Origin: a virus
Direction: 5' to 3' (one strand)
Length of the DNA stretch: 29,842 bases
IMG/VR virus record: IMGVR_UViG_3300044491_002714
Coordinates: 1 to 29,842 of that record
This document shows, piece after piece, positions 1 through 25,836 of the stretch (positions are counted from its first letter, which is position 1; each line of letters starts with the position of its first letter). The notes below the pieces were generated by a model, which was not told where the DNA came from, did no database searches, and saw nothing but the letters and a program-made list of their open reading frames with translations. A program made the position numbers and the translations under genes.

Positions 1-863
1 ATGGTAACAACATCATCTCTGGTGCAGTTGTTCCATCTTCCAACGCAATTGGTCTTCACTTCTATCCCATCTGGGAAGCCGCATCGCTTGACGAGTGGCT
101 GTATAACGGTGGTCCTTTCCAACTGGTAGTCTTCCACTTCCTTATCGGCATCTATGCATATATGGGACGTGAGTGGGAACTTTCTTACCGTCTAGGTATG
201 CGTCCATGGATCTGTGTTGCATACTCTGCACCAGTTGCTGCTGCGAGTGCAGTATTCCTAGTCTATCCTTTCGGTCAAGGATCTTTCTCAGATGCAATGC
301 CCCTCGGAATCTCAGGAACCTTCAACTACATGTTGGTCTTCCAAGCTGAGCACAATATTCTCATGCATCCCTTCCATATGCTCGGCGTTGCTGGGGTATT
401 TGGTGGCAGTTTGTTTAGTGCTATGCACGGAAGCTTGGTTACTTCTTCTCTCGTTAGAGAGACGACTGAAACCGAGTCCCAAAACTACGGTTACAAGTTC
501 GGACAAGAAGAAGAGACATACAACATCGTAGCCGCTCATGGTTACTTTGGTCGCTTGATCTTCCAATACGCTTCATTCAACAACTCCCGTTCCTTGCACT
601 TCTTCCTTGCTGCATGGCCTGTTGTTGGCATCTGGTTCACCGCACTTGGTGTCTCCACGATGGCATTCAACCTGAACGGTTTCAACTTCAACCAGTCCAT
701 CATTGATGGTCAGGGTCGTGTGTTGAACACCTGGGCAGATGTATTGAACCGTGCTGGTCTTGGTATGGAAGTTATGCATGAGCGTAACGCACACAACTTC
801 CCACTTGATCTCGCTGCTGCTGAGTCAACTCCTGTTGCTCTTCAAGCACCTGCCATCGGTTGA
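1..863 (+). CDS. psbA: Photosystem II reaction-centre protein D1 (5' end outside the window)
   Basis: D1 binds the primary photosystem II chlorophylls, QB and the Mn cluster in the thylakoid membrane. Phage copies replace the fast-turning host D1 during infection. The reading frame is open from base 3, and numbering back from the His-Glu pair of [10 protein letters not shown] (H332, E333) makes the first full codon residue 74, with no insertions. D170 (FSDAMPL), E189 and H190 (QAEHN), H198 (HPFHML), H215 (AMHGS), H272 (RSLHFF), H337, D342 and A344 are all present. The 15-residue tail after A344 is the part normally cut off by CtpA, giving a full protein of about 359 residues. No intron interrupts the visible part, although some phage psbA genes carry one. 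The gene ends 21 bases before an intrinsic terminator, so it probably closes its transcript. Confidence 0.98.
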
Positions 864-884
864 TATGACCCCTGGTAGTCCTCT

Positions 885-915
885 CCCCGTCACAGAATAC
901 GTGGCGGGGTTTTTT
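885..915 (+). terminator. Intrinsic terminator after psbA
   Basis: A 9-bp stem (885-893 with 901-909, CCCCGTCAC against GTGGCGGGG, one G-U pair) has a 7-base loop and is followed by six T. It sits just after the psbA stop codon and before the promoter of the next unit. Confidence 0.9.
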
Positions 916-931
916 ATCGGTATCTCAAGCA

Positions 932-959
932 TTGCAATCCCCCTCCTTTGTGTTATACT
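932..959 (+). promoter_or_regulatory. Sigma70-type promoter with extended -10 for the trx-psbD unit
   Basis: TTGCAA (932-937) and TATACT (954-959) are spaced by 16 bp. TG at 951-952 gives an extended -10 (TGTTATACT). Transcription should start near 966, which places the upstream in-frame ATG codons at 948 and 963 outside the transcript and favours the thioredoxin start at 996. Confidence 0.7.
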
Positions 960-995
960 GTTATGATCGGAAACTTAGAACCAGAAGAAACCGTG

Positions 996-1292
996 ATGAG
1001 CACTACAATTCCTAGATTCCTAATCTTCTCAAAAGAATCATGTGGTCCCTGCATGTTAGTCAAAAAGTATTTCAGAACAATCAATGACCCAAGGGTCTCT
1101 GTCATTGAAGAAATTTCTTTAGACCTTGGTGCTCCTCAAGAAAACTTTCTTCTTGCAAAAAAATACACTGACGGCGCTACGCCTACATTGGTTGTCGTCA
1201 ATGATTTTGAAGAAAGAATCGAAAAATATGTCGGGGGACTGGAAATCACTCAAAACATTAGAAAACTTTTCAACAAGTATGGGGTATATTAA
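996..1292 (+). CDS. Small thioredoxin-like protein (CGPC)
   Basis: This 98-residue protein has a thioredoxin fold core and the redox motif SCGPC at residues 15-19 (active cysteines 16 and 19), followed by the conserved TPTLVVV segment holding the cis-proline. It should be a cytoplasmic dithiol-disulfide exchanger. The start at 996 is chosen because the predicted transcription start near 966 excludes earlier Met codons. The gene sits between psbA and psbD, and its TAA directly abuts the psbD ATG in the same frame, so the two are co-transcribed. Likely partners are host Calvin-cycle or photosystem assembly targets, or the phage's own enzymes. That is inference from position. It is shorter than a typical bacterial thioredoxin of about 105 residues and could also be described as glutaredoxin-like. 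Confidence 0.85.
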   Translation: MSTTIPRFLIFSKESCGPCMLVKKYFRTINDPRVSVIEEISLDLGAPQENFLLAKKYTDGATPTLVVVNDFEERIEKYVGGLEITQNIRKLFNKYGVY

Positions 1293-2348
1293 ATGACAAC
1301 AAGTACACTACAAGCACCAACAAGGGGGTGGTTCGATGTCCTGGATGACTGGCTTAAACGCGACCGCTTTGTCTTTGTGGGTTGGTCTGGATTACTACTT
1401 CTTCCCACTGCTTATCTGGCAATTGGTGGCTGGCTTACTGGCACGACGTTTGTTACAAGCTGGTATACCCACGGATTGGCGTCTTCCTACCTTGAAGGTG
1501 CTAATTTTCTCACAGCGGCTGTGTCAACGCCTGCTGACGCTATGGGTCATTCTCTTCTTCTACTTTGGGGTCCTGAGTCTCAGGGAGATTTCGTCCGCTG
1601 GCTCCAACTTGGGGGACTCTGGGCTTTTGTGGCGCTCCACGGGGCTTTCGCTCTGATTGGATTCATGCTCCGTCAATTTGAATTGGCACGTCTTATCGGT
1701 ATCCGTCCTTACAATGCGATTGCTTTTTCTGGTCCGATTGCTGTCTTTGTGTCTGTTTTTCTCATCTATCCTCTCGGACAGTCCAGTTGGTTCTTTGCAC
1801 CGTCGTTTGGTGTTGCAGCGATATTTAGATTCCTTCTATTCTTACAGGGTTTCCATAACTGGACGCTCAACCCGTTCCATATGATGGGTGTTGCAGGTAT
1901 CCTAGGAGGAGCATTGCTTTCAGCAATCCATGGTGTTACAGTAGAAAATACATTGTATGAAGATGGTGAGCAGGCAAATACTTTTAAAGCATTCGATTCT
2001 ACTCAGGAAGAAGAGACTTATTCAATGGTTACAGCAAACCGATTCTGGTCACAGATCTTTGGTATTGCTTTCAGCAACAAACGCTGGCTTCATTTCTTTA
2101 TGTTATTCGTTCCAGTTATGGGACTTTGGACATCATCGATTGGCATCATTGGTCTGGCTCTTAATCTTCGTGCTTACGATTTCGTTTCTCAAGAGATCAG
2201 AGCGGCAGAGGATCCAGAGTTTGAAACTTTCTATACTAAAAACATCCTTCTCAACGAAGGACTGAGAGCATGGTTGGCACCAGTCGATCAACCACATGAG
2301 AATTTTGTTTTTCCCGAAGAAATTTTGCCGAGAGGTAATGCTCTCTGA
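1293..2348 (+). CDS. psbD: Photosystem II reaction-centre protein D2
   Basis: D2 pairs with D1 to form the photosystem II core and binds QA, chlorophyll and the non-haem iron. The 351-residue length is normal for the family. Diagnostic segments are [20 protein letters not shown] near the N-terminus, [10 protein letters not shown] and [11 protein letters not shown] (chlorophyll and iron histidines), [12 protein letters not shown] (H267, second iron histidine) and the C-terminus [12 protein letters not shown]. Five hydrophobic membrane spans are evident. The ATG follows the thioredoxin TAA with no gap, and GGGG near 1280 may act as the ribosome site. Phages carrying psbD usually infect a broad range of hosts. 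It lies in the photosynthesis module with psbA upstream and plastocyanin downstream. Confidence 0.98.
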
Positions 2349-2481
2349 CGATATGCCTTACAAGTTGAGGGAAATTATTCGAGACACTTTCCCCAACTTG
2401 TTCCGTCCACAAAAGGACTGGAAACCTCCGTCAGAGTATCAAAACAAACAAAATAAAAACAAAGAAGAACCTCATAGATAG
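2338..2481 (+). CDS. Small hypothetical protein after psbD
   Basis: I do not recognise a family for this 47-residue ORF. It begins [10 protein letters not shown] inside the last codons of psbD, and an alternative start is the Met at 2353. It contains a short hydrophobic-charged helix ([13 protein letters not shown]) and then a Lys/Asn/Gln-rich, probably disordered tail ending EEPHR. The overlap with psbD and the 19-base gap to plastocyanin suggest that it is translated within the same message. No signal peptide or membrane segment is seen. It may be a small soluble accessory protein or a non-functional ORF. Its support is position and compact packing only. Confidence 0.5.
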
Positions 2482-2500
2482 TGTAGTTTCATACACGAAT

Positions 2501-2824
2501 ATGAAGTTCTTTTTTGCTTTTCTTGCTACACTCTTTCTTGCTGCACCTGCTTGGGCTGTAGACGTTCAGATGGGATCAGGTGGCAACTTGATTTTTGACC
2601 CAGCAGATGTTACAATCTCAGCAGGTGAATCAGTTCACTTTATAAACAACATGCTTCCTCCACATAACGTGGTAGTTGAAGACCATCCAGAAATCTCTCA
2701 TGAAGCACTCGCTATGATGCCTGGTGAAGAGTTTGACATCACCTTTACAGAAGCAGGTGATTACACATACTGGTGTGGTCCTCACAAGGGAGCAGGTATG
2801 ATTGGTACAGTACACGTAAACTAA
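2501..2824 (+). CDS. petE: Plastocyanin
   Basis: Plastocyanin is the soluble blue-copper carrier that moves electrons from cytochrome b6f to photosystem I in the thylakoid lumen. The 107-residue precursor starts with a signal peptide (MKFFFAFLATLFLAAPAWA, cut after residue 19). Copper ligands are H55 (PPHNVVVE), C92 and H95 (WCGPH) and M100 (GAGM), in the usual order and spacing. The C-terminal strand GTVHVN closes the fold. There is no strong ribosome site, and the stop overlaps the talC ATG by one base (TAATG), so the two are translationally coupled. In the phage it would supply electron-transport capacity as host synthesis fails. The copper site looks intact. Confidence 0.95.
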   Translation: MKFFFAFLATLFLAAPAWAVDVQMGSGGNLIFDPADVTISAGESVHFINNMLPPHNVVVEDHPEISHEALAMMPGEEFDITFTEAGDYTYWCGPHKGAGMIGTVHVN

Positions 2825-3471
2825 TGAAAATTTTTCTTGACACCGCTGACTCTCTTGCTATTGAACGATATGCTGACACTGGATTGATTGATGGTGTCAC
2901 TACTAATCCTACTTTGATTATGAAGAGTGGTAGAGATCCAAGAGATGTCTACCACCACATCAAAGATATTGGTATTCAAGATATTAGTATGGAAGTTATG
3001 GGTGACTTCGATCAAATGTATGCTGAGGGATATAAACTCGCAAAAGAATTTGGTGATGTCGCTACGATCAAATTGCCTTGCACCCGTGAAGGTCTTCATG
3101 TGTGCAAAGCTCTTTCTAATGAGGGAATCAGGATCAACGTCACACTGGTCTTTAGTGCTGCTCAGGCAGTCCTTGCTGCCAAGGCAGGGGCAACCTACGT
3201 CAGTCCCTTTGTAGGACGCTTAGACGACCAGTCAGTGGCAGGTCTGGAGGTTGTACGATCCATCTCTGAACTGTATCGTATTCACAGGATGCCAACACAG
3301 GTTCTTGCTGCATCAATCCGTAATGTTCAACGTGCTGTACGCTCTTGGTACAATGGTGCTGAGATCTGTACGTTGCCACCTAAAGTGTTTGATCAGATGT
3401 ATGATCATATCCTTACCGACAAAGGAATGGAGATCTTCGAAGAGGACTGGGCAACTGCTGGACAAATGTGA
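2824..3471 (+). CDS. talC: Transaldolase of the TalC/FSA type
   Basis: TalC transfers a dihydroxyacetone unit between sugar phosphates in the pentose phosphate pathway. In cyanophages it is linked to making NADPH and ribose-5-phosphate from host carbon. The 215-residue protein has the short TalC form of the aldolase barrel: MKIFLDTADS at strand 1, GVTTNPTLI at residues 24-32, the Schiff-base lysine K83 in TIKLP, NVTLVFS, and SPFVGRLDD near the phosphate site. The start at 2824 gives the family N-terminus; an ATG upstream in the same frame would add residues encoded within plastocyanin. It is the last gene of the trx-psbD-petE-talC unit, which ends at the hairpin at 3490. It acts with CP12 encoded at 22921 in redirecting carbon flow. 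Confidence 0.96.
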   Translation: MKIFLDTADSLAIERYADTGLIDGVTTNPTLIMKSGRDPRDVYHHIKDIGIQDISMEVMGDFDQMYAEGYKLAKEFGDVATIKLPCTREGLHVCKALSNEGIRINVTLVFSAAQAVLAAKAGATYVSPFVGRLDDQSVAGLEVVRSISELYRIHRMPTQVLAASIRNVQRAVRSWYNGAEICTLPPKVFDQMYDHILTDKGMEIFEEDWATAGQM

Positions 3472-7275: not shown

Positions 7276-7440
7276 ATGAACACACTTTCTCTAATCAAGA
7301 AGAAAATCGAAAAAGCATCTGCACTTCACGACGCACAAATTGCAATGACCACTTATCGTGGTGTTCGCTACGAGTGTCAACAAGGAGCAGAAGAAGCACA
7401 TGGCACTTTCTGCTATCGCGGTCACACTTATAACAAGTGA
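7276..7440 (+). CDS. DUF4278-like small protein
   Basis: The 54-residue protein has a basic helix at the N-terminus (LIKKKIEKASALHDAQIA) and then MTTYRGVRYEC and FCYRGHTYNK, two copies of the YRG-x-x-Y signature that defines the cyanobacterial DUF4278 family. Function is unknown for the family. It begins 46 bases after the previous stop, GGTAACGG lies just upstream, and it ends in TGA eight bases before the next ATG, so it belongs to the riboswitch-led unit. The two cysteines (C34, C46) sit next to the YRG motifs. Families of this type are abundant in cyanobacterial genomes, so the gene is probably host-derived. Confidence 0.75.
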   Translation: MNTLSLIKKKIEKASALHDAQIAMTTYRGVRYECQQGAEEAHGTFCYRGHTYNK

Positions 7441-7447
7441 GGTTGTC

Positions 7448-7549
7448 ATGTTAGCACTTCAAATTGCTGCGTTCGGTTCACTGTTTTCTGCAGCATTTAT
7501 TGGTTTACTTTACGGTGAACTGGTTCTCTTGAATAAAATTCAAGATTGA
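7448..7549 (+). CDS. Tiny single-span membrane peptide
   Basis: The 33-residue ORF begins MLALQIAAFGSLFSAAFIGL and ends LLNKIQD. Residues 2-28 are almost entirely hydrophobic with small residues spaced on one face, as in a single membrane helix. GAGG at 7439-7442 is a good ribosome site six bases before the ATG; the longer reading frame from 7358 runs through the DUF4278 gene and lacks such support. It is the last gene before the terminator at 7571. Its size resembles small photosystem or thylakoid subunits, but I see no specific motif. The function is unknown. Confidence 0.6.
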   Translation: MLALQIAAFGSLFSAAFIGLLYGELVLLNKIQD

Positions 7550-7570
7550 GGACATATAAATGCTGAAGAT

Positions 7571-7595
7571 GAGGGGTTTACACCCCTCTTTTTTT
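7571..7595 (+). terminator. Intrinsic terminator of the riboswitch unit
   Basis: GAGGGG (7571-7576) pairs with CCCCTC (7583-7588) around the 6-base loop TTTACA, followed by seven T (7589-7595). The loop is also the -35 box of the next promoter. Confidence 0.9.
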
Positions 7596-7605
7596 GTGCT
7601 ATTAT
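7577..7605 (+). promoter_or_regulatory. Sigma70-type promoter with its -35 in the terminator loop
   Basis: TTTACA (7577-7582) and TATTAT (7600-7605) are 17 bp apart; the spacer holds the terminator's 3' arm and T-run. Initiation is expected near 7612. A late-type ATAAATAT lies downstream at 7620-7627. Confidence 0.7.
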
Positions 7606-7627
7606 GGAGGCACCTTACCATAAATAT

Positions 7628-7798
7628 ATGGATAGAGAAAAACTCAAACTCATCGTCAAGAATCTCAAATCTCTCACGAATGCGTTAGAGAGTGAGGTTT
7701 ATTCTGATCCGTCTGCTTACGAAATTCAGTTACAGCAAGACGGACCAAAATTCGGATTCAAATATGATGATGGAGACGATGATGGATATCCAGACTGA
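7628..7798 (+). CDS. Small hypothetical acidic-tailed protein
   Basis: The 56-residue form begins MDREKLKLIVKNLKSLTNAL, a helix, and ends with a run of Asp and Gly (KYDDGDDDGYPD). An in-frame ATG at 7604 would add eight residues, but it overlaps the -10 box of the promoter, so 7628 is preferred if that promoter is used. With initiation near 7612 the leader would be about 16 bases without a clear ribosome site. If a transcript from further upstream is used, GGAGG at 7606-7610 is available. Acidic tails like this are common in DNA-mimic or disordered proteins, but nothing more specific can be said. It overlaps the next gene. Confidence 0.65.
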   Translation: MDREKLKLIVKNLKSLTNALESEVYSDPSAYEIQLQQDGPKFGFKYDDGDDDGYPD

Positions 7799-9077: not shown

Positions 9078-9833
9078 ATGCCAAGACGTTCTAGAAAAGA
9101 TCCACCTGATCTGAGTTCAATGACTGCAAAACAAATGCGTCGCAAGAAACCAATCAACAGTGACATGCTAGTGGGGGTGGAACCACTAACTGAGAATCAA
9201 AAACTTCTTTTCAATTCTTATGCTGAAGGGAAGAACATTTATGCTTATGGATGTGCTGGAACAGGTAAAACTTTCATCACACTCTATAATGCTCTAAAAG
9301 ACGTATTGGATGAAACCACTCCATACGAAAAGATTTACATCGTAAGATCTCTAGTCGCAACTAGAGAGATTGGATTCCTACCTGGAGACCACGAAGATAA
9401 ATCTGCACTTTACCAGATTCCATACAAAAATATGGTAAAGTATATGTTTGAGATGACATCTGATGCAGACTTTGAGATGCTCTATGGTAACCTCAAGCAG
9501 CAAGAAACGATCAGTTTCTGGAGCACGTCATTTATTCGTGGTACTACATTTGATAACTCTATTATCATCGTTGATGAGTGTCAGAACCTGAACTTCCATG
9601 AACTAGATTCTATTATTACCCGTGTTGGTGAGAATTCTAAGATCATGTTCTGTGGTGATGCCATCCAGACAGATTTGGTGAAGACCAATGAACGTAATGG
9701 TATTCATGACTTCATGAAGATTTTGAAAGTCATGACAGATGAATTTCAACTAGTTGAATTTGGTATTGATGATATTGTCCGTTCTGGACTTGTACGTAAT
9801 TACATTATTAGTAAAACTGAACTTGGTTTATGA
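9078..9833 (+). CDS. phoH: PhoH-like ATPase
   Basis: The 251-residue P-loop protein of the PhoH family is common in marine phages; its biochemical role is unsettled, with helicase- or RNase-related activity proposed. Visible motifs are Walker A GCAGTGKT (residues 58-65), the PhoH signature VRSLVATREIGFLPGD, Walker B IIIVDECQN (D166, E167) and sensor GDAIQTDL. The N-terminus is basic (MPRRSRKDPP), with RRKK at residues 21-24. It starts one base after the previous stop and overlaps the nuclease gene (ATGA), so the two are coupled. Its link to phosphate stress in E. coli should not be assumed for the phage gene. All ATP-binding residues are intact. Confidence 0.93.
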   Translation: MPRRSRKDPPDLSSMTAKQMRRKKPINSDMLVGVEPLTENQKLLFNSYAEGKNIYAYGCAGTGKTFITLYNALKDVLDETTPYEKIYIVRSLVATREIGFLPGDHEDKSALYQIPYKNMVKYMFEMTSDADFEMLYGNLKQQETISFWSTSFIRGTTFDNSIIIVDECQNLNFHELDSIITRVGENSKIMFCGDAIQTDLVKTNERNGIHDFMKILKVMTDEFQLVEFGIDDIVRSGLVRNYIISKTELGL

Positions 9834-11664: not shown

Positions 11665-11876
11665 TGGAAGCTCCTGATGAAGAGTGGTGGTGCGAGATGA
11701 AAATGGGGATCAGGGAGGCTCGTATGATGTATGACCACATCTGCTACTCCATTGAGATGTGGCCAGGTGCTCCTAGACGCCCCTATGAGGAACAGGAGTA
11801 CCTTCGCATACTCAAGATGCGCTTCTTCGCTATGATTCAGGAATACAACTTCACCCACCTTGACACCGATAAATAA
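11664..11876 (+). CDS. Small hypothetical protein upstream of gp32
   Basis: The 70-residue protein starts MEAPDEEWWCEMKMGIREAR and looks helical, with a Met/Trp/Tyr-rich surface and a conserved-looking APRRPYEEQEYLRILKMRFF. The start overlaps the DUF1825 stop (TAATG). The end overlaps the -35 box of the gp32 promoter, so its last codons are constrained by that promoter. No family is recognised. Confidence 0.75.
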   Translation: MEAPDEEWWCEMKMGIREARMMYDHICYSIEMWPGAPRRPYEEQEYLRILKMRFFAMIQEYNFTHLDTDK

Positions 11877-11888
11877 TCATGCTATGAT
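11860..11888 (+). promoter_or_regulatory. Strong sigma70 promoter with an internal late motif, upstream of gp32
   Basis: TTGACA (11860-11865, perfect) and TATGAT (11883-11888) are 17 bp apart. The spacer contains ATAAATAA (11869-11876), a T4-type late -10. Initiation near 11895 leaves a leader of about 34 bases. A combination of early and late control fits the heavy need for gp32. Confidence 0.8.
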
Positions 11889-16641: not shown

Positions 16642-16656
16642 TGCTATAATAAATAC
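16642..16656 (+). promoter_or_regulatory. Extended -10 and late-like motif before gene 26
   Basis: TGCTATAAT (16642-16650) is a good extended -10, continuing into AATAAATAC, a late-type motif. The -35 at 16622 (TTACTA) is poor, so an extended -10 or phage late control is more likely. The gap 16579-16684 holds no other gene. Confidence 0.55.
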
Positions 16657-17391: not shown

Positions 17392-17571
17392 ATGGGGTAC
17401 ATATCCCTCGAAGTATATTATGAAACCAATTTCGCAATGATGCATCACCACAAGTGGTCTCTAACTGAAATTGAAAACATGATACCTTGGGAGAGGGATG
17501 TGTATGCTTCCATGCTTTCCGAACACTTGAAGGATCAAAAACAACAAATGGAACAAAAAAAAGGATTCTAA
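17392..17571 (+). CDS. Small ORF, likely C-terminal extension of gp26 by -1 frameshift
   Basis: The 59-codon ORF reads MGYISLEVYYETNFAMMHHH and then KWSLTEIENMIPWERDVYAS, ending in a Lys/Gln-rich tail. The LTEIxxMxPWERDVYxxML pattern resembles the second part of tail assembly chaperones (as in lambda gpT), which recruit to the tape measure. There is no ribosome site: GGTTAGCC precedes the ATG. In the -1 frame it is continuous with gene 26 past the T-TTT-TTC site. It ends directly at the tape-measure ATG (17572). It may be made only as a fusion (gp26-GT-like) or also alone. I cannot identify a T4 homologue with certainty. Confidence 0.75.
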   Translation: MGYISLEVYYETNFAMMHHHKWSLTEIENMIPWERDVYASMLSEHLKDQKQQMEQKKGF

Positions 17572-20500
17572 ATGGCTAATACCATCGATGTCAAAGGTGC
17601 GATTGTAAATATCACACCAACAAAAACTGTAAAATTTGATAGGATGATGGGGTCTACTGGCGGTGCTGGTGGACAAGGTAAGTCAGCTAAATTCTCTGAT
17701 AAGGGAGAATACAAGAATCTCGGTAAGTTTGTTGTCCTCATGGGGCAAAGTTTGAAGAAGATGAATGTGAATCTTCTTCAAACTAAGAAAGAAATCACAG
17801 GTCTTAGAAAAGAGAATGGTGAGAAACTAACTGCGATTGCAACTGCGATTGGTGATCAGAGAGCAGAACTAAAATCGTTTGCAAAGTCACAGAAGAAAGC
17901 AAATAAGACACTCAAGGATCTTGCAGGTAAGGTAGGAACTTCTCTAGAGTTAGATAAGATCCGAAACAAAGGTGCTCTTGAGGACAGAAAAGAAAGAAGA
18001 AGAGATAGAGAAGAAAGAAGAAGAGTAGAAAGAGAAAGTGCCTTAGAAAAAGGTAAAAAAGTAATTGGTGGTATAGGAAGTGGTTTAGGAAAACTTGCTA
18101 AGGGTGGTAAGAATTTCCTTGAGACCATCATGGATTTCCTTGGAATCGGGGGATTCATTGCATCTGTTGTAACTGCATTTGCTGGTTATCAGATTCTAAA
18201 GAAAGCACTCAACTCCAACTTTGTCAAGAATACTGTCAAAGGGTTCATGGAGGGAATGCAGAACCTGATTGCAGGTATTCAATCAATTCCTGAAGGTGCA
18301 TTTGACAAGATCGGTAACGCTCTCGGTGGCATTGCAAAATTTCTTGGTGGTGCTCTTGGTAAAACTATTGAGAGTGTTGGTAAGTTTATTGATGGGATTC
18401 CTCAAGAAACTCTTGATAAGTTTGGTAAGTTTTTTGGCAATGTCTTCAAGTTTGTCGGTGCCTTTGTTGGAGATAGATTCAAAGAAATCTTCAACGGTCT
18501 AGATAAACTCATTGACAAAGATGGCAATCTGAAGTTTGATTTAGGCGGTATTGTCAATCTGATCACTGGCATTGGTGGTCTTGCTTTAGCATACCGATAT
18601 ATCAAGAACCCAGAAAAGATTATTGGTGATGTTGGAAGTGTCTTAGGTTTCTTTGGTACTCTAGCAGGAAAGGCAGGAGCAATGCCTGGTACTCTTGGTA
18701 AAGTATTTTCGATATTTGCTGAGAGAGGGGCAAGTCCTCTCAAACCAATGTTTGTCAGGGTTGTTGGTAAAGGTGGTGGACTTGGTGGTGGTCTTGATGA
18801 TCTTATACCTAAAGGTCCTGGTCTTAAGATTCCGAATAAATTTACTGCTCCTAGAGGCAGTGGTCTGAACACTGGTGGCAGCAAATTATCAAAGTTGATG
18901 AAGCTAGGTAAAGGTGCTGGTGTTTTAGCACGTCCTGGTAGTATTATCAATGCCGCCACAGGTAGAGCAACTAGAATGCTTGGGGGCAACAAAGCAATCG
19001 ATGTTGTCAAGAATCTAAAGGGTGCTGATGCTACAAAATTTCTTAGAAAAGCAGTTATGTCAGGAACCCTGTCAGAAACGCAGGCACTCAAAATTGCTAA
19101 GTCTAAGGGACCTAATGTTCTGAAGAATCTAAAAGGTGTTCTTGCTCAGGGTGGAAATCTTGGTCGTGGTCTTGCGACCCGTGGAGGAGAGGCTCTAATA
19201 GGTGCGAGGCAGGGATTTGGTAATTTTATGTCAGGTCTTGGTCAAAAAGGCATGGGACTTCTGAAAGGTGCTAAAGGTCTTGGAAAGAATATCTTAGCAG
19301 GCGCTCTTGCACTACCTGGAAATGCAGCGAACCTTGCAAAAGGTATTGGACAAAAGGCAGTGTCATTTGGTGGTTCTGCTGTTGGTGGAATCAAAGGATC
19401 TCTAAGGTCATTAGGTGAAGGTTTATCAAACCTAAATCCAATGCAAGCACTTGAAAAAATCAAGAGCGGGGTTGGATCAAAGATTGATGAGATTATGAAA
19501 GCAGAACCTTTGATTGCTGCAATCAAGAATCTCAAAGATCCTAAAAAGATGAAAGAGATTCTGAAGAATACCTTATCTAGAGCCAAACCTGCATTGAATG
19601 GTATCAAAGATGCTAAGAAAGCAATGGGTCCATTCAAGATTCCTGGACTTGATGCTGCTATTGGTGCATTGACTGCTGCGATTGAGATCTTTGCATTCAA
19701 ACAACCAGCAGGTAATGCTGCATTGGGTGCTCTTGGTGGTGTTCTTGGATCAGCAGCAGGTACTGCTGTTGGTACTCCTGGTGGTCCTCCTGGAATGTTT
19801 ATCGGTGCCATGGCAGGTGCAACTCTTGGTGAATTAGCAGGTCGGGCGATTGCAAGAGGATTGGGTAATGTTCTCCCACCTGAAATTGGTGGATTCACTG
19901 GTATCAATGGTGCTCCATTGTTCTCTACGGCAGGTCTTTCTGAAAATCCAGAACCAGCAGACGGGGAAGCACCAGTCAAGAAAGCAAGGGGTGGTAAGAT
20001 CTTTGGCGGTAGACCAACTGGTGATAGCGTTCCTGCTTATCTTGAGCGTGGTGAATATGTCCTCAATAGAAAAGCAGTATCTGCTATTGGACCATCAAAT
20101 CTAGATGCGATGAACTTTGGAATGTATCCAAGATTCCAAAGTGGTGGTCAAGTATCGAGACAAGAAGGATGGGATAAGTTTACTGAGTGGGGTAAGGAGA
20201 AGGGTGCAAAGTATCCTCAACTCGTTAGTGCTCAGTGGGCACTAGAATCTGGATGGGGATCTGCTCTGTCTGGTAAAAATAACTTCTTTGGAATCAAAGC
20301 AACCACCAGCGAATCTTCAACCAATCATAGAACTAGAGAAGTTGTCAATGGTAAAGACATTTATGTCAATGCTAACTTCAAGAACTTTGAAACACCTCAA
20401 GACGCTGTTGATCACCTTGTGTCTCAGTGGTATAAGAATTATAAGAATTATAAGGGTGTCAACAATGCTGGTAGTCCTAATGAAGCAGCAGCGATGTTGA

Positions 20501-21591
20501 AACAGCAAGGATACGCTACAGATCCTAGCTATCCTCAGAAACTGATCGAGTTGATGCAATCGAAAGGTGTTAGCAGTGGTCCTGCATATGTCAGTGGAGA
20601 TGGAAATTCCAAATCTGGATCTGGTGCCGAACCAAACAGAAGTGGTGGTTTCCTGAGCAACCTTGTGGGATTTATGCAGGAAGGTGGTTCAGTAGATAAA
20701 AAGCATCCACTCTTGAAAAAACTGAGTGATGGTAAGATCAAGAAAGTTGGCGCACCAATGGGATATTGTGTCACTGGATCTCTTGATACGATGAAAGCAA
20801 GTGGTGTTCCAGAACCTGCTGCTACTGGAAATGATGTTGGTAATAATCCAAGAGGTGCAATCTCTCAGTTGATGCAATCACCTTACAACTGGAAGAGTAT
20901 GGGTGGATCATCAATCAAACTAGATAGTCCATATGGAAAGGTCAATGCAGGAACTTACACAAAAGATCAATACAAGAGTTTGGTAGAGAGTGGAAAGGTT
21001 CCTTCAGGTGCATTGGTATTCCAATCTAGACATAGTAATTGGAATGGAACTTCCCCTAGATCCAGTGGTTATGACATGGCGATTGCACAGCAGGGTGGTA
21101 AAAGGCATTGGAATGGACAACCAATGCCAATGTTTGTTTATGGCAACAACACCAAGAAAGTTATCGTTCTTACACCAGACGGTAAACAAGGTGATGGAAG
21201 TGATGTTCAAATAACAGGTGAAGATAATTCATATACTGGAACAGATAGTAGCAATAATCCACAACCATCAACTGCGGAAAATAGCTATGGATTCTTGGGA
21301 CAACAAGACGTAATCGCGAGTGGAGGCATCACAAGTCAAGCAAACATTTCTGCAATGACAAAAGGCATCATGGCAATGGCAGGTGATGTATCTAAATCAG
21401 GTGGTGGAGGTATATTTGGTGGTGCCATGGGTGGTGCAATTCAACCAGCTCTATCAACTGGAGGCAATGCTGCTCCAAATCCAGTATCTACAGCACAAGG
21501 AACTGCTAACCCTTCAAGTGGCGGTGGTCTCTCCTTGTTCTCTACTTCAACGGTAAATAGAAATAACGAAGCAAAGAGTGAAATGAGGTAA
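17572..21591 (+). CDS. Tape-measure-like tail protein with glucosaminidase and peptidase-like domains
   Basis: The protein has 1339 residues. N-terminal region: coiled coil to about residue 160, with a very basic stretch (DRKERRRDREERRR). Middle: hydrophobic, Gly-zipper segments at about 185-215 (FLGIGGFIASVVTAFAGYQI) and 715-770, typical of tape measures. GGKIFGGRPTGDSVPAYLER is a motif common near the ends of tail tape measures. Residues 864-1002 form a FlgJ-like glucosaminidase (QWALESGWGS with E892, NNFFGIK at 903-909, VDHLVSQWYKNY). Residues 1060-1200 resemble a CHAP or NlpC-type fold, with C1066 in GYC and H1154 or H1179 as candidates; this is tentative. It sits after the chaperone and before gp27. 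It would fix tail length and then help DNA cross the host wall. Confidence 0.85.
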   Translation: MANTIDVKGAIVNITPTKTVKFDRMMGSTGGAGGQGKSAKFSDKGEYKNLGKFVVLMGQSLKKMNVNLLQTKKEITGLRKENGEKLTAIATAIGDQRAELKSFAKSQKKANKTLKDLAGKVGTSLELDKIRNKGALEDRKERRRDREERRRVERESALEKGKKVIGGIGSGLGKLAKGGKNFLETIMDFLGIGGFIASVVTAFAGYQILKKALNSNFVKNTVKGFMEGMQNLIAGIQSIPEGAFDKIGNALGGIAKFLGGALGKTIESVGKFIDGIPQETLDKFGKFFGNVFKFVGAFVGDRFKEIFNGLDKLIDKDGNLKFDLGGIVNLITGIGGLALAYRYIKNPEKIIGDVGSVLGFFGTLAGKAGAMPGTLGKVFSIFAERGASPLKPMFVRVVGKGGGLGGGLDDLIPKGPGLKIPNKFTAPRGSGLNTGGSKLSKLMKLGKGAGVLARPGSIINAATGRATRMLGGNKAIDVVKNLKGADATKFLRKAVMSGTLSETQALKIAKSKGPNVLKNLKGVLAQGGNLGRGLATRGGEALIGARQGFGNFMSGLGQKGMGLLKGAKGLGKNILAGALALPGNAANLAKGIGQKAVSFGGSAVGGIKGSLRSLGEGLSNLNPMQALEKIKSGVGSKIDEIMKAEPLIAAIKNLKDPKKMKEILKNTLSRAKPALNGIKDAKKAMGPFKIPGLDAAIGALTAAIEIFAFKQPAGNAALGALGGVLGSAAGTAVGTPGGPPGMFIGAMAGATLGELAGRAIARGLGNVLPPEIGGFTGINGAPLFSTAGLSENPEPADGEAPVKKARGGKIFGGRPTGDSVPAYLERGEYVLNRKAVSAIGPSNLDAMNFGMYPRFQSGGQVSRQEGWDKFTEWGKEKGAKYPQLVSAQWALESGWGSALSGKNNFFGIKATTSESSTNHRTREVVNGKDIYVNANFKNFETPQDAVDHLVSQWYKNYKNYKGVNNAGSPNEAAAMLKQQGYATDPSYPQKLIELMQSKGVSSGPAYVSGDGNSKSGSGAEPNRSGGFLSNLVGFMQEGGSVDKKHPLLKKLSDGKIKKVGAPMGYCVTGSLDTMKASGVPEPAATGNDVGNNPRGAISQLMQSPYNWKSMGGSSIKLDSPYGKVNAGTYTKDQYKSLVESGKVPSGALVFQSRHSNWNGTSPRSSGYDMAIAQQGGKRHWNGQPMPMFVYGNNTKKVIVLTPDGKQGDGSDVQITGEDNSYTGTDSSNNPQPSTAENSYGFLGQQDVIASGGITSQANISAMTKGIMAMAGDVSKSGGGGIFGGAMGGAIQPALSTGGNAAPNPVSTAQGTANPSSGGGLSLFSTSTVNRNNEAKSEMR

Positions 21592-21593
21592 CT

Positions 21594-22919
21594 ATGAAAG
21601 CATTAGGCGCTGGAGATTACGAACTAATTCTAAAGATCACCAACAAAGACGGTGAAGAACTGCTCATCAGTGGAGACAAACTTGCTGGTCTTGTCTATAG
21701 AGAGGGTATTCAATGTCCTACTATTGAATGTGACTTTGCTATAGTTGATACTAATGATGCAAACTATATGGAAAAAATTCTCGTTGGTGAAAAAGTTAGT
21801 ATAACTTTTAGAACCAAGGAAGGTGCAGATGTGACTGTGAAACTTGTGGTTTATGGTATAATGGCAGGTGGAAGAGAGAATGATAAAGTGGCAAACATTT
21901 TCAAATGTATGAGTGAAGAAGCATTCAGGTCACTTTATATTAGAATGGAAAAATTATATAAAGAAAAAACGCCCACAGAGATTATCACAGATATTCTTTC
22001 TACATTCGTAGGTTCAAGTAAAGAAGTCAATACTGGAATAGATGCAGAACCTCTTACACTGGCAGCAATGCGTGACAAACCATTTGATTTTATTCAGAGT
22101 GTATGTAAGAGATCTATTCCTTCAGAGACAAGTCAAAAAGGAGCAGGTAAAGGAACTGCTGGATATACTTTTTATGAAACATCTGCTGGGTTTCACTTCA
22201 AATCCATCGATGAACTTTTGGGTGCAGAAAGTGATGGTGGAGCATATGCCCCCACCACATCTAAAATCAAAGGTGAAAAGGAAGTTGAAACTTTTTATGT
22301 AAACGTTGCACCTAACGCTGATGGTACTAGTGATGAAGATGAAACTAGAGTTGTCCAAAACTACTCAGTAAAAGATAACAATGATCTGGAAGATCAACTA
22401 TATAAAGGAACCCAGGCAAACTTGGTAGGATTTTTCGATCCAAACTCTCTACGATATACAGAAGAAACCTATATTCTAAAGGGTGAAAACTTTGAGGCAA
22501 TGGGTCACCTTGCCAAGGGAACAGGAGAGAATCCAAACATCGATAATTGGAGAGAAATTCCTTCTAGAATCATGACAAAGGTTTTCAACAATGAGATGTA
22601 TGAATTGAAATCTGACCGTGCTGAGGAGGAAAAGTACGATAAAATTAAACAGTACCTTGCTCAACAACTCGTAAGAAATAACCTGGGAAAAAACCAAAAA
22701 GTAGAGATAAATATTCCTGGTAACTCTACATTACATGCAGGTGATAAAATCATCCTGCAGGTGTATAAATCAGTAAGTAACGCAGATTCTAGGAAAAAGG
22801 ACAGGGTTGACAAAAAGATGAGTGGGTACTATCTTATATCTAAGGTGGTGCACAAATTTGATTCTGGCATGGCAACCACCACATGTTTACTAATTAGAGA
22901 CCAAAACAACGAAATCTAA
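21594..22919 (+). CDS. gp27: Baseplate hub protein gp27-like
   Basis: gp27 forms the trimeric torus of the central hub that holds gp5; the fold is shared with phage gpD and VgrG proteins. The 441-residue protein begins MKALGAGDYELILKITNKDG (strand-rich first tube-like domain), then VYGIMAGGRENDKVANIFKC, SLYIRMEKLYKEKTPTEIIT, PFDFIQSVCKRSIPSE, and ends GYYLISKVVHKFDSGMATTT and CLLIRDQNNEI, the typical hub finish (Y-x-I-x-x-V-x-H-x-F-x-x-G-x-x-x-T). The T4 protein has 391 residues; this is longer because of acidic loops (DGTSDEDETR). It lies between the tape measure and cp12-gp5. The start is two bases after the previous stop. Confidence 0.82.
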   Translation: MKALGAGDYELILKITNKDGEELLISGDKLAGLVYREGIQCPTIECDFAIVDTNDANYMEKILVGEKVSITFRTKEGADVTVKLVVYGIMAGGRENDKVANIFKCMSEEAFRSLYIRMEKLYKEKTPTEIITDILSTFVGSSKEVNTGIDAEPLTLAAMRDKPFDFIQSVCKRSIPSETSQKGAGKGTAGYTFYETSAGFHFKSIDELLGAESDGGAYAPTTSKIKGEKEVETFYVNVAPNADGTSDEDETRVVQNYSVKDNNDLEDQLYKGTQANLVGFFDPNSLRYTEETYILKGENFEAMGHLAKGTGENPNIDNWREIPSRIMTKVFNNEMYELKSDRAEEEKYDKIKQYLAQQLVRNNLGKNQKVEINIPGNSTLHAGDKIILQVYKSVSNADSRKKDRVDKKMSGYYLISKVVHKFDSGMATTTCLLIRDQNNEI

Positions 22920-22920
22920 A

Positions 22921-23148
22921 ATGGAAAATATTGAACAGCATATCGCAAAAGATAAGGAGATTCTTCACAATCCAACTGTATCTCCACAAATGCGTCGTCA
23001 CATTGAGGGCGAACTGCATGATTTAGAAGACTGGGTAGTAAATCACAAAGAAGAAATTGCTGCTGGCGATCATCACGATCCCACACCATTGGAACTCTTT
23101 TGTGATCAAAACCCATCAGAACCAGAGTGTTTAGTATACGACGATTGA
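22921..23148 (+). CDS. cp12: CP12-like Calvin cycle regulator
   Basis: CP12 is a small redox-sensitive linker that holds GAPDH and phosphoribulokinase together and shuts down the Calvin cycle. The 75-residue protein ends with PLELFCDQNPSEPECLVYDD, the C-terminal CP12 motif with the GAPDH-binding cysteine pair (C61, C70) and the acidic ending. The N-terminal cysteine pair present in many plant and cyanobacterial CP12s, needed for phosphoribulokinase, is missing; this part is the helix QMRRHIEGELHDLEDWVV. The gene is located between gp27 and gp5, an odd place for a metabolic gene, and its UGA is one codon before the in-frame gp5 ATG. With TalC it should favour the pentose phosphate route. Expression may be late because of position. 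Confidence 0.88.
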   Translation: MENIEQHIAKDKEILHNPTVSPQMRRHIEGELHDLEDWVVNHKEEIAAGDHHDPTPLELFCDQNPSEPECLVYDD

Positions 23149-23151
23149 TAC

Positions 23152-25836
23152 ATGCTTGATTCAACGCTATCAACCCCACATTTCATTGGTAGAGATAAAT
23201 TTGTATGGTGGATTGGACAGGTAGAGAAGTCTGTAGATACTGCTAAGAATTCTAATCGAGTCAAGGTTAGAATTATTGGTTATCATTCAGACAGAACTGC
23301 TGTTCCTGCTGAGGAATTGCCATGGGCACATATTCTCATGCCACCTACAAATGCTCAAAGTGGTGGAACAGGGAAGAAAGCAATGCTCACTCCTGGACAG
23401 TGGGTAGTTGGTTTCTTCCTGGATGGCGATGAAGCACAGGTTCCTTGTATCTGGGGTTGTCTTGGCGGAACCATTGGAACAGATACTGATCCAACAGTTC
23501 CTCAATCTGCATTTCAGAGCCCACAAAATTTGTGGAGCAAACCAGAAATGGTCAAACCCACAAATGTGGCAAAGAAAGCATCTAATCCATCATCTGATGC
23601 AACTAATCAGATGCCACATATGGCAGGTACAAATAAACCTGAAGGAGATGAAGATGAGTTTGAAAAGGTAGATGCTGGTGAAAGTAAACCCAAATTATTG
23701 ACTGAAGATAGTCTTGCATCCACTGGTCAAGTCTCAAAGGAACAAGAACAAACTTATGAAGTAGCAGTCGCAGATGGTGTCTGTGGTGCTAATTCTGTCA
23801 TGGACCAGATGAGTTCTAAATTGACAGAATTTATTGAAGATATCTCCAGTGCTGTAAAAGTAGGGGAACTTTGGATCAATACCCAAACTGGTGCAGTCAT
23901 GGACATGACTAAAAAGATTCAGAGTTATTCTGCACTCATTGGAAATATGTTGCAGGCACCAATGGCTTCTATCATGAGATTTGCCGAAGCAGAAGCAAAA
24001 AAACTATTTCCTGCGCTCTTTGCAGCAGCAGCGGCACCAGATCCATTTGGACTCTCGGGTGTAAAAGAAACAGTAGATAAAGTTTTGTCGGCAATCAAAT
24101 GTGCTTTCAACAGTGACATCTTGGGTGGTCTTGGTGACCTAGTGAGTGGTATCCTTGGAGACATTGTGGGTGGTATTGGTGATTTAGTAAGTGGACTATT
24201 CACAAGTGTAACTAATGCTGCTAATTGTATTCTCCAGTCTGCACTTGAAAAGACCATGGGATCTATTATGTCTGGTCTCAATAGTGTCATGAATGGAATA
24301 AGTAGTGCTCTCGCATCTATTGGTGGCACTATCGAACAGATTACTGGTGCTGTCAGTTCTGTTATGGGATTTGCACAACAGATTCTGGGTATTCTTGATT
24401 GTGTCAACCCTGATAGCAAAAAGTGTGCTAGAACTAAAGTTTACTCTACCAAGGAGGGATCGAAGAGACCAAAAGCATTCTTCGATATGAATAATCCTGA
24501 CCTTGATAAGGCACTTGCTGATCTGGCAGGTGCTCCCCTAAATGTCTGTGAAGATGCAAAGAAATCAACATCCAACAGTCAAGAAATTTTTGCATCTGCT
24601 ATAGGTGATACTGTATCTCAAACAATCACTGGACTTGGTGGTGGTCAAAGACCAGTTCAAACAAGTGGTGTAGAAGAGGTTGGAGAACTCTTTGAGGGAT
24701 ATATTCCCATTGGCGCAATTCAAGCGTTCCAAGATGGTGGGGTTGACATCAGTGCTGCTCTAGCAGCATCAGGTGTTCAAGATGAGAGAAGAGCTCTTGC
24801 ATTTGCCACAAGTGTTCAATCAGCAATCCAATCTGGTTTTGGTGATACATCAACAGCATATCAGGCAGCACAAGCATTAGGAGAGACAGGTGTTCTTTCC
24901 CAATTTACTGAAAGTAATGGTGTTGGTCCAGCATACGGTATTTTTGGTAAACTTGTCGCATTCAATCCTGACACTGGAGCGTATATAGTTGAAGGACTAG
25001 ATGCTCCACTTATCCCAGGCACTTGGATACGGTCAGCATCAGGTCATTGCATTCAAGTTGCAAGATCTAGCATTTATAAACCAAAAGCACCTGGAAAAGG
25101 TAGAGGTGCCAGAGTTATTCTTCCTATTGATGGGAATGGATGTCCTAAAACTGATGCTATTGTTCTTGATGGTGGATCAGGATATGGTAATGGTAAGAAC
25201 GGAAATCATGCCCCAGATGCATTTGTAGTCACAGAGATGTATGACCATGAAACGGGTCAACCTATTGAGGGATATTATCTCAAGGGAACTGTATTTGTTG
25301 ATGATAATGGATCTATCACAGCAGTTACATTCAACAATGAATACAATTATTGCTTCAAAGACACTCCTCAGGTCTCTATCAATGGAGATGGTGGAGATCT
25401 TGGAGATCCAACAGAGAATGATGCTGTCAAAGATCCAAACACACTTACTAACCAGACAGAAACTACACTTGTTCTCAACACTGCCAATACCGCTATCAAT
25501 GGTATCCTCCAAGATTTCCACATCACAAATGTAGGGTTTGGATATAAAAACCCAGTCGTTAGTATTACAGGTGGTGGTGGATCTGGTGCTACAGCAGAGG
25601 TGGTTGACTACTATGGTAGAATAGTAGATATCAAGATTACTAACTCTGGATCTGGATATACATCAGTACCCAATGTTTTGATCAAGGATGTACCAGTCCT
25701 TGGAGAAGATCCAAATACTTTCCGTGGTGCTGGTGCTAGAGTATATCCAATTATAAGATACTTGTCCTCTTCCAATCCAAATCTTGTCAAGAAACTTTCT
25801 GGTGAGGAAGTTGTTGAAGTCGTCGATTGCCCCTAA
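23152..25836 (+). CDS. gp5: Baseplate hub gp5-like protein lacking the lysozyme domain
   Basis: The protein has 894 residues. Residues 1-125 match the OB-fold of T4 gp5 (WWIGQVEKSVDTAKNSNRVK, then IIGYHSDRTAVP and LPWAHILMPPT, QWVVGFFLDGDEAQVPCIWG). A low-complexity linker and a long helical/hydrophobic region follow (230-430; LVSGILGDIVGGIGDLVSGL). The end (660-850) contains Gly-rich repeats with the pattern GSGY-x-x-x-P-x-V-x-I-x-GGGGSGA, a beta domain found in cyanophage structural proteins. No T4-type lysozyme catalytic motif is present. The C-terminal beta-helix of gp5 is encoded by the next ORF, in the same reading frame after TAA AAA ACT. It should act as the central spike hub above gp27. 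Confidence 0.85.
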   Translation: MLDSTLSTPHFIGRDKFVWWIGQVEKSVDTAKNSNRVKVRIIGYHSDRTAVPAEELPWAHILMPPTNAQSGGTGKKAMLTPGQWVVGFFLDGDEAQVPCIWGCLGGTIGTDTDPTVPQSAFQSPQNLWSKPEMVKPTNVAKKASNPSSDATNQMPHMAGTNKPEGDEDEFEKVDAGESKPKLLTEDSLASTGQVSKEQEQTYEVAVADGVCGANSVMDQMSSKLTEFIEDISSAVKVGELWINTQTGAVMDMTKKIQSYSALIGNMLQAPMASIMRFAEAEAKKLFPALFAAAAAPDPFGLSGVKETVDKVLSAIKCAFNSDILGGLGDLVSGILGDIVGGIGDLVSGLFTSVTNAANCILQSALEKTMGSIMSGLNSVMNGISSALASIGGTIEQITGAVSSVMGFAQQILGILDCVNPDSKKCARTKVYSTKEGSKRPKAFFDMNNPDLDKALADLAGAPLNVCEDAKKSTSNSQEIFASAIGDTVSQTITGLGGGQRPVQTSGVEEVGELFEGYIPIGAIQAFQDGGVDISAALAASGVQDERRALAFATSVQSAIQSGFGDTSTAYQAAQALGETGVLSQFTESNGVGPAYGIFGKLVAFNPDTGAYIVEGLDAPLIPGTWIRSASGHCIQVARSSIYKPKAPGKGRGARVILPIDGNGCPKTDAIVLDGGSGYGNGKNGNHAPDAFVVTEMYDHETGQPIEGYYLKGTVFVDDNGSITAVTFNNEYNYCFKDTPQVSINGDGGDLGDPTENDAVKDPNTLTNQTETTLVLNTANTAINGILQDFHITNVGFGYKNPVVSITGGGGSGATAEVVDYYGRIVDIKITNSGSGYTSVPNVLIKDVPVLGEDPNTFRGAGARVYPIIRYLSSSNPNLVKKLSGEEVVEVVDCP

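Follow-up and report, generated by a model that had tools for sequence, protein, structure and literature searches.

A CP12 protein with the C-terminal cysteine pair alone in a recurrent baseplate hub slot of cyanophages, a likely inhibitor of host GAPDH

The window analysed here, a stretch of 29,842 nucleotides from the virus record IMGVR_UViG_3300044491_002714, carries a cp12 gene for a product of 75 amino acids (MENIEQHIAKDKEILHNPTVSPQMRRHIEGELHDLEDWVVNHKEEIAAGDHHDPTPLELFCDQNPSEPECLVYDD). The protein matched the Pfam family PF02672 (CP12) over residues 2–74 and positions 3–70 of the 70 in the profile, with 38.1 bits (cut-off 22.7, E = 2.7e-09), and phrog_627 over its full length with 145 bits (E = 1.1e-42). 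Because homologues covering at least 80% of the protein occur in 362 phage records, the comparison confirmed a real CP12 reading frame, far beyond chance. The gene is packed flush into a series of baseplate hub genes: the upstream gene, coding for 441 amino acids, ends 1 nt before its ATG, and gp5 starts 3 nt after its stop codon. The upstream product gave no match to the PDB by sequence, even as a profile and with T4 gp27 included; its AlphaFold model (pLDDT 78.5), in contrast, superimposed on T4 gp27 (1wth/1k28) with Z scores of 29.0/28.8 over 335–340 residues (3.0 Å over 335 residues for 1wth_D), and Foldseek returned T4 gp27 chains at E values of about 1e-17 to 1e-18. The genes psbA, psbD, plastocyanin and talC lie at positions 3–3471, about 19.4 kb from cp12. 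The original prediction, a CP12 gene between gp27 and gp5 and remote from talC and psb genes, was thus borne out, with gp27 recognised by its fold and gp5 by its OB domain. Directly before gp27, the hub operon contains a gene for a 1339-aa protein (17572–21591, + strand) with a glucosaminidase domain (PF01832) at residues 880–997, which in phrogs matches endolysins and tape measure proteins, among others. Between psbA and psbD, we observed a gene for a small thioredoxin-like protein (963–1292, + strand) with a CGPC motif and a match to phrog_22, the Pfam matches staying below the cut-off; this putative phage thioredoxin might influence whether CP12 is oxidised or reduced.

Table 1. Positions of cp12, its parts, the adjoining hub genes and candidate promoter elements in the window.
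Feature	Position	Strand	Product, evidence or remark
gp27-like baseplate hub protein (T4-GC_15, phrog_350)	21594..22919	+	AlphaFold model vs. T4 gp27
cp12, T4-GC_337 type, C61/C70 pair only	22921..23148	+	75-aa CP12 protein
N-terminal helical hairpin, without cysteine pair or AWD_VEE core	22930..23043	+	model helices 4–16 and 22–41
C-terminal tail CDQNPSEPECLVYDD, residues 61–75	23101..23145	+	aligns with CP12 in solved GAPDH complexes
gp5 baseplate hub protein	23152..25836	+	OB domain PF06714; T4 gp5 chains
Nearest upstream [AC]TAAATA motif (late-type) standing before a gene (gp26, 16685)	16648..16655	+	possible hub-operon promoter, cp12 included
Candidate sigma-70-like promoter within gp27 (TTGACA-17-TATCTT)	22807..22835	+	weak

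The same gene order recurs in related phages. A gp27-like gene, cp12 and gp5 follow each other directly in S-BM3, S-SM2, S-SSM7 and S-RSM4, and the slot holds additional cpeT, tRNA or other small genes in S-SSM5, P-SSM4, S-CREM1 and Syn9. In IMG/VR, both flanks could be read at 60 loci, and 43 of these carry cp12 between gp27 and gp5; the other position encountered, for example in P-HM2, adjoins talC in the neighbourhood of psbA/psbD. The location was already known, since Sullivan et al. reported cp12 near gp5 in 2010. The two loci whose gp27 comes closest to that of the window (51–52% identity), a near-identical twin set aside, contain an 88-aa CP12 of the P-SSM2 type between gp27 and gp5. 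This type has a different N-terminal half, and its C-terminal part alone matches the Pfam CP12 family; 50 of its 80 relatives lie in the gp27–gp5 slot, and all 80 have the C-terminal cysteine pair only. By these alignments, two CP12 types with nothing but the C-terminal tail in common use the slot, and because both share only the tail, keep only the C-terminal pair and occupy the same place, the pattern suggests that what has been retained is the function of the GAPDH tail. Sullivan et al. listed both clusters, T4-GC 337 and 63, as CP12; a description of the slot common to the two types was not found in the literature examined. A common tail joined to two different N-terminal halves marks the GAPDH tail as the part to examine first.

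The window CP12 contains C61 and C70 as its only cysteines, with none before residue 61, and these form the C-terminal pair CxxxPxxxxC (C61 DQN P65 SEPE C70). All 80 close IMG/VR homologues likewise have exactly C61 and C70 and lack the N-terminal pair. We considered an upstream start that might supply the missing cysteines and ruled it out, the frame ahead of the ATG consisting of nine open codons (LETKTTKSK) after a TAA, with no Cys and no ATG, GTG or TTG. The original prediction of an absent N-terminal pair and a retained C61/C70 pair therefore held, including against the upstream start it had named as the finding that would speak against it. Lacking the N-terminal pair of the canonical N/C type, the protein falls into the CP12-C class (C-terminal pair present, N-terminal pair absent), which is a named natural class (PMC3906501). 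The same 2014 review describes cyanophage proteins as resembling the C-terminal region of CP12, names cyanophages as one exception to the N/C rule and states that, of all cyanobacterial groups, only the marine picoplankton have no classical N/C copy (PMC3906501); the CP12 of S. elongatus PCC 7942 is likewise without the N-terminal pair (PMC11257934). The C-terminal-pair-only pattern of cyanophage CP12 is thus already published (PMC3906501), and the window CP12 is ordinary in kind, its family, location and cysteine pattern all having been known before. We also looked for a host CP12 for comparison, the scan of genome contigs yielding a phage-like contig only and that of plasmids chance matches only. 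A planctomycete contig from a Rhodopirellula MAG (NZVD01000042.1) carries a cyanophage-type cp12 together with an upstream gp27-like gene and is likely misbinned phage DNA.

The absence of the N-terminal pair had been taken to suggest a truncated mode of action, which was not borne out: the protein is not truncated, because its 75 residues compare with the 74 of Synechocystis Cp12 (PMC11257934) and its N-terminal half is strongly conserved, with a helical hairpin as its predicted fold. H7, D11, P18, P22, R25, R26, H27, E31, L32 and L35 are invariant over diverse phages. The AlphaFold model, built with 41 relatives, has a mean pLDDT of 92.6 (about 89–96 across residues 1–40) with predicted helices at 4–16, 22–41, 43–47 and 56–63; it is a single-chain model without a partner, and CP12s are conditionally disordered. 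Its five best Foldseek matches were CP12 chains from GAPDH or GAPDH/PRK complexes, all of them weak (E = 0.065–0.17), and VIA-align gave low Z scores only, not surprising for a helical protein this short. The AWD_VEE core of canonical CP12 is absent, the corresponding residues reading ELHDLED. When the profile was aligned to T. elongatus CP12, the phage protein had other residues in place of the N-terminal cysteines and of "AWD", the first half of this core, but kept the second half, "LEE/LED". Because the AWD_VEEL core, which contacts the Ru5P site of Prk (PMC11257934), is degenerate in the phage protein, PRK binding by the window CP12 is uncertain. These data bear on a possible redox-relaxed dual inhibitor, in which a preformed, disulfide-free hairpin would engage both phosphoribulokinase and GAPDH, even in the light when classical CP12 is reduced. 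The high pLDDT of the hairpin, the full-length CP12 chains as best, though weak, matches, the ten invariant residues and the retained half of the Prk-contacting core would suit such a protein, but the "AWD" half is replaced, the model was computed without a partner, and the persistence of the C-terminal pair suggests that redox control was retained; we consider this activity rather unlikely.

The C-terminal tail is much closer to known CP12 proteins. The profile comparison with T. elongatus CP12 shows the pattern CxxxNPxxxEC..YDD retained, the tail aligns to the GAPDH-bound CP12 chains 6gfo/6gve, 3zdf and 3b1j, and a profile search (A1) found 6gfo over its full length with E = 3e-4. Going by these alignments, the window CP12 has probably retained GAPDH binding, and its most likely function is that of a GAPDH inhibitor acting through the C-terminal tail. 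For Synechocystis, it has been reported that during diurnal growth with glucose, cells with a CP12 lacking the N-terminal pair grew like the wild type, whereas those lacking the C-terminal pair did not, so that the C-terminal, GAPDH-binding pair is the one that matters under this condition (PMC11257934). Among the papers searched on phage CP12 and GAPDH, we found an expression study only and no biochemical test.

The gene is under purifying selection as judged from its substitution rates, with dN values of 0.08–0.15 against dS values above 1 or saturated. That cp12 is leftover host DNA caught in the hub operon and without function, for which only the odd location speaks, is hardly credible given dN far below dS, an intact cp12 in 80 of 80 relatives and the presence of the gene in 362 records. 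When the window was compared with its nearest relative, S-BM3, in tiles of 150 nt, the flanks were mostly 0.83–0.97 identical, whereas the central cp12 tile reached 0.75, and dS amounted to 1.42 in cp12 vs. 0.29 in gp27. The divergence starts just past the cp12 start codon and stops at PECLVYDD. By this pattern, the cp12 allele is swapped between near-identical flanks; the best phage DNA match to the window cp12 is 80.8% identical, which indicates that its donor was not sampled. A description of such an exchange was not found in the literature examined. Among S-RIM2 isolates with flanks at least 99.7% identical, identity falls to 85% over the 5' half of cp12 in one isolate and to 91% over the 3' half in another, whose protein is unchanged, so two isolates were affected separately within this gene. 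Comparing two of the near-identical isolates (L262, L263) with a third (L261), we observed further divergent tracts at about 7321–7680, 9601–9720, 17401–17520 and 40321–41520, and the S-RIM2 tracts suggest frequent short-tract recombination. We rejected the notion of cp12 as a unique recombination hotspot, as divergence within the first 50 kb of S-RIM2 occurs in several tracts, cp12 being only one of them. The allele swaps in an otherwise conserved operon provide a natural variant set for phage CP12. In a more far-reaching interpretation, the gp27–gp5 junction would be a site reserved for Calvin-cycle inhibitors and filled again and again, which two types have entered and in which alleles have recombined in place, with the disulfide-free hairpin inhibiting GAPDH, and perhaps PRK, under light, reducing conditions; as a whole, we regard this proposal as doubtful.

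Regarding expression, the position of cp12 had been taken to imply transcription with late genes unless an internal promoter exists. Late expression was not established, because most relatives have a motif of their own ahead of the gene and early expression of cp12 has been reported for the slot phage Syn9. An [AC]TAAATA motif stands 26–35 nt ahead of cp12 in 28 of 44 non-redundant slot loci, vs. 2.8 expected, and ahead of the gene in all 14 loci outside the slot, while none of 28 P-HM2-type gp27 ends without cp12 has it. In the window and S-BM3, this leader motif is missing close to cp12. Late-type motifs in the window precede gp26, gp4 and the tail fibre gene, and because the nearest one standing before a gene is that ahead of gp26, cp12 probably shares the hub transcript by read-through. 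As to the internal promoter, a candidate sigma-70-like site is indeed present inside gp27, but it is weak; it overlaps conserved gp27 coding sequence, and a qualifying site appeared in 4% of synonymous recodings of the window gp27. An apparently strong enrichment of such sites against dinucleotide shuffles (17 of 44 loci vs. 1.4 expected) was weakened by synonymous recoding, the fairer null (19 of 46 loci vs. 5.1 expected, related loci included). Elsewhere in the window, a sigma-70-like site (TTGACA...TATGAT) overlaps an [AC]TAAATA motif at 11860–11888 (+ strand), 60–69 nt before gp32, and may form a dual promoter. We rejected [AC]TAAATA as proof of late timing, since P-HM2 cp12, a middle gene (PMC5082946) which adjoins talC outside the gp27–gp5 slot, and psbA carry the motif too. 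According to a review, Syn9 cp12 is co-expressed early (PMC6359870, a secondary source whose table row for Syn9 also lists zwf and gnd). The evidence on timing conflicts: most relatives carry a late-type motif, but both phages for which expression has been published express cp12 early or as a middle gene. A product of the hub operon that acts late, or even as an accessory of the virion or hub, and not as a metabolic switch would agree with the flush packing, with the lack of a recognisable Shine-Dalgarno sequence just upstream of cp12 and with the late-type motifs of the window. We consider it improbable, because cp12 lies elsewhere in about one third of the close relatives (17 of 60 with readable flanks), P-HM2-type hubs lack it in the slot, the early and middle expression just mentioned does not fit, and the tail is that of a GAPDH-binding CP12.

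With family, slot, cysteine pattern, flush packing and purifying selection established by comparison of the genes, we hold with good confidence that the locus as a whole is best explained as a C-terminal-pair-only cyanophage CP12 in a recurrent gp27–gp5 cargo slot which would inhibit host GAPDH. The gene would pass between phages by homologous recombination and would be transcribed probably by read-through of the hub operon, possibly also from the internal promoter. After infection, the tail closed by the C61–C70 disulfide would dock in the active site of the NADP-dependent GAPDH of the host and slow down the Calvin cycle, leaving NADPH and pentoses to phage nucleotide synthesis, and the N-terminal hairpin, predicted to form without a disulfide, may provide weak phosphoribulokinase binding or some other contact. 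Phage CP12 is central to the model in which cyanophages redirect light energy so that it serves nucleotide synthesis and not carbon fixation.

Among known systems, S-BM3 (OQ319121) agrees with the window in slot (between T4-GC_15 and gp5), neighbours, length and cysteines of CP12, whereas its cp12 is a different allele with 78.9% DNA and 80% protein identity. S-SM2, S-SSM7, S-RSM4 and Syn9 (T4-GC_337) code for CP12 proteins of 75 or 70 amino acids with the C-terminal pair only in the same gp27-like/gp5 slot; in contrast to the window, their hub neighbours are only about 22–30% identical to those found here and a short leader precedes cp12, which contains the [AC]TAAATA motif in S-RSM4 and Syn9. 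The 88-aa CP12 of P-SSM2 (T4-GC_63) has the same C-terminal tail and metagenomic relatives in the gp27–gp5 slot, but its N-terminal half is without clear similarity (Pfam, BLAST) and the gene lies elsewhere in P-SSM2 itself. The cyanobacterial CP12 proteins in solved GAPDH complexes (6gfo/6gve, 3b1j) have the tail CxxxNPxxxEC..YDD in common with the phage protein, whereas the N-terminal cysteine pair and the AWDALEEL core of 6gfo are both absent from the CP12 of the window.
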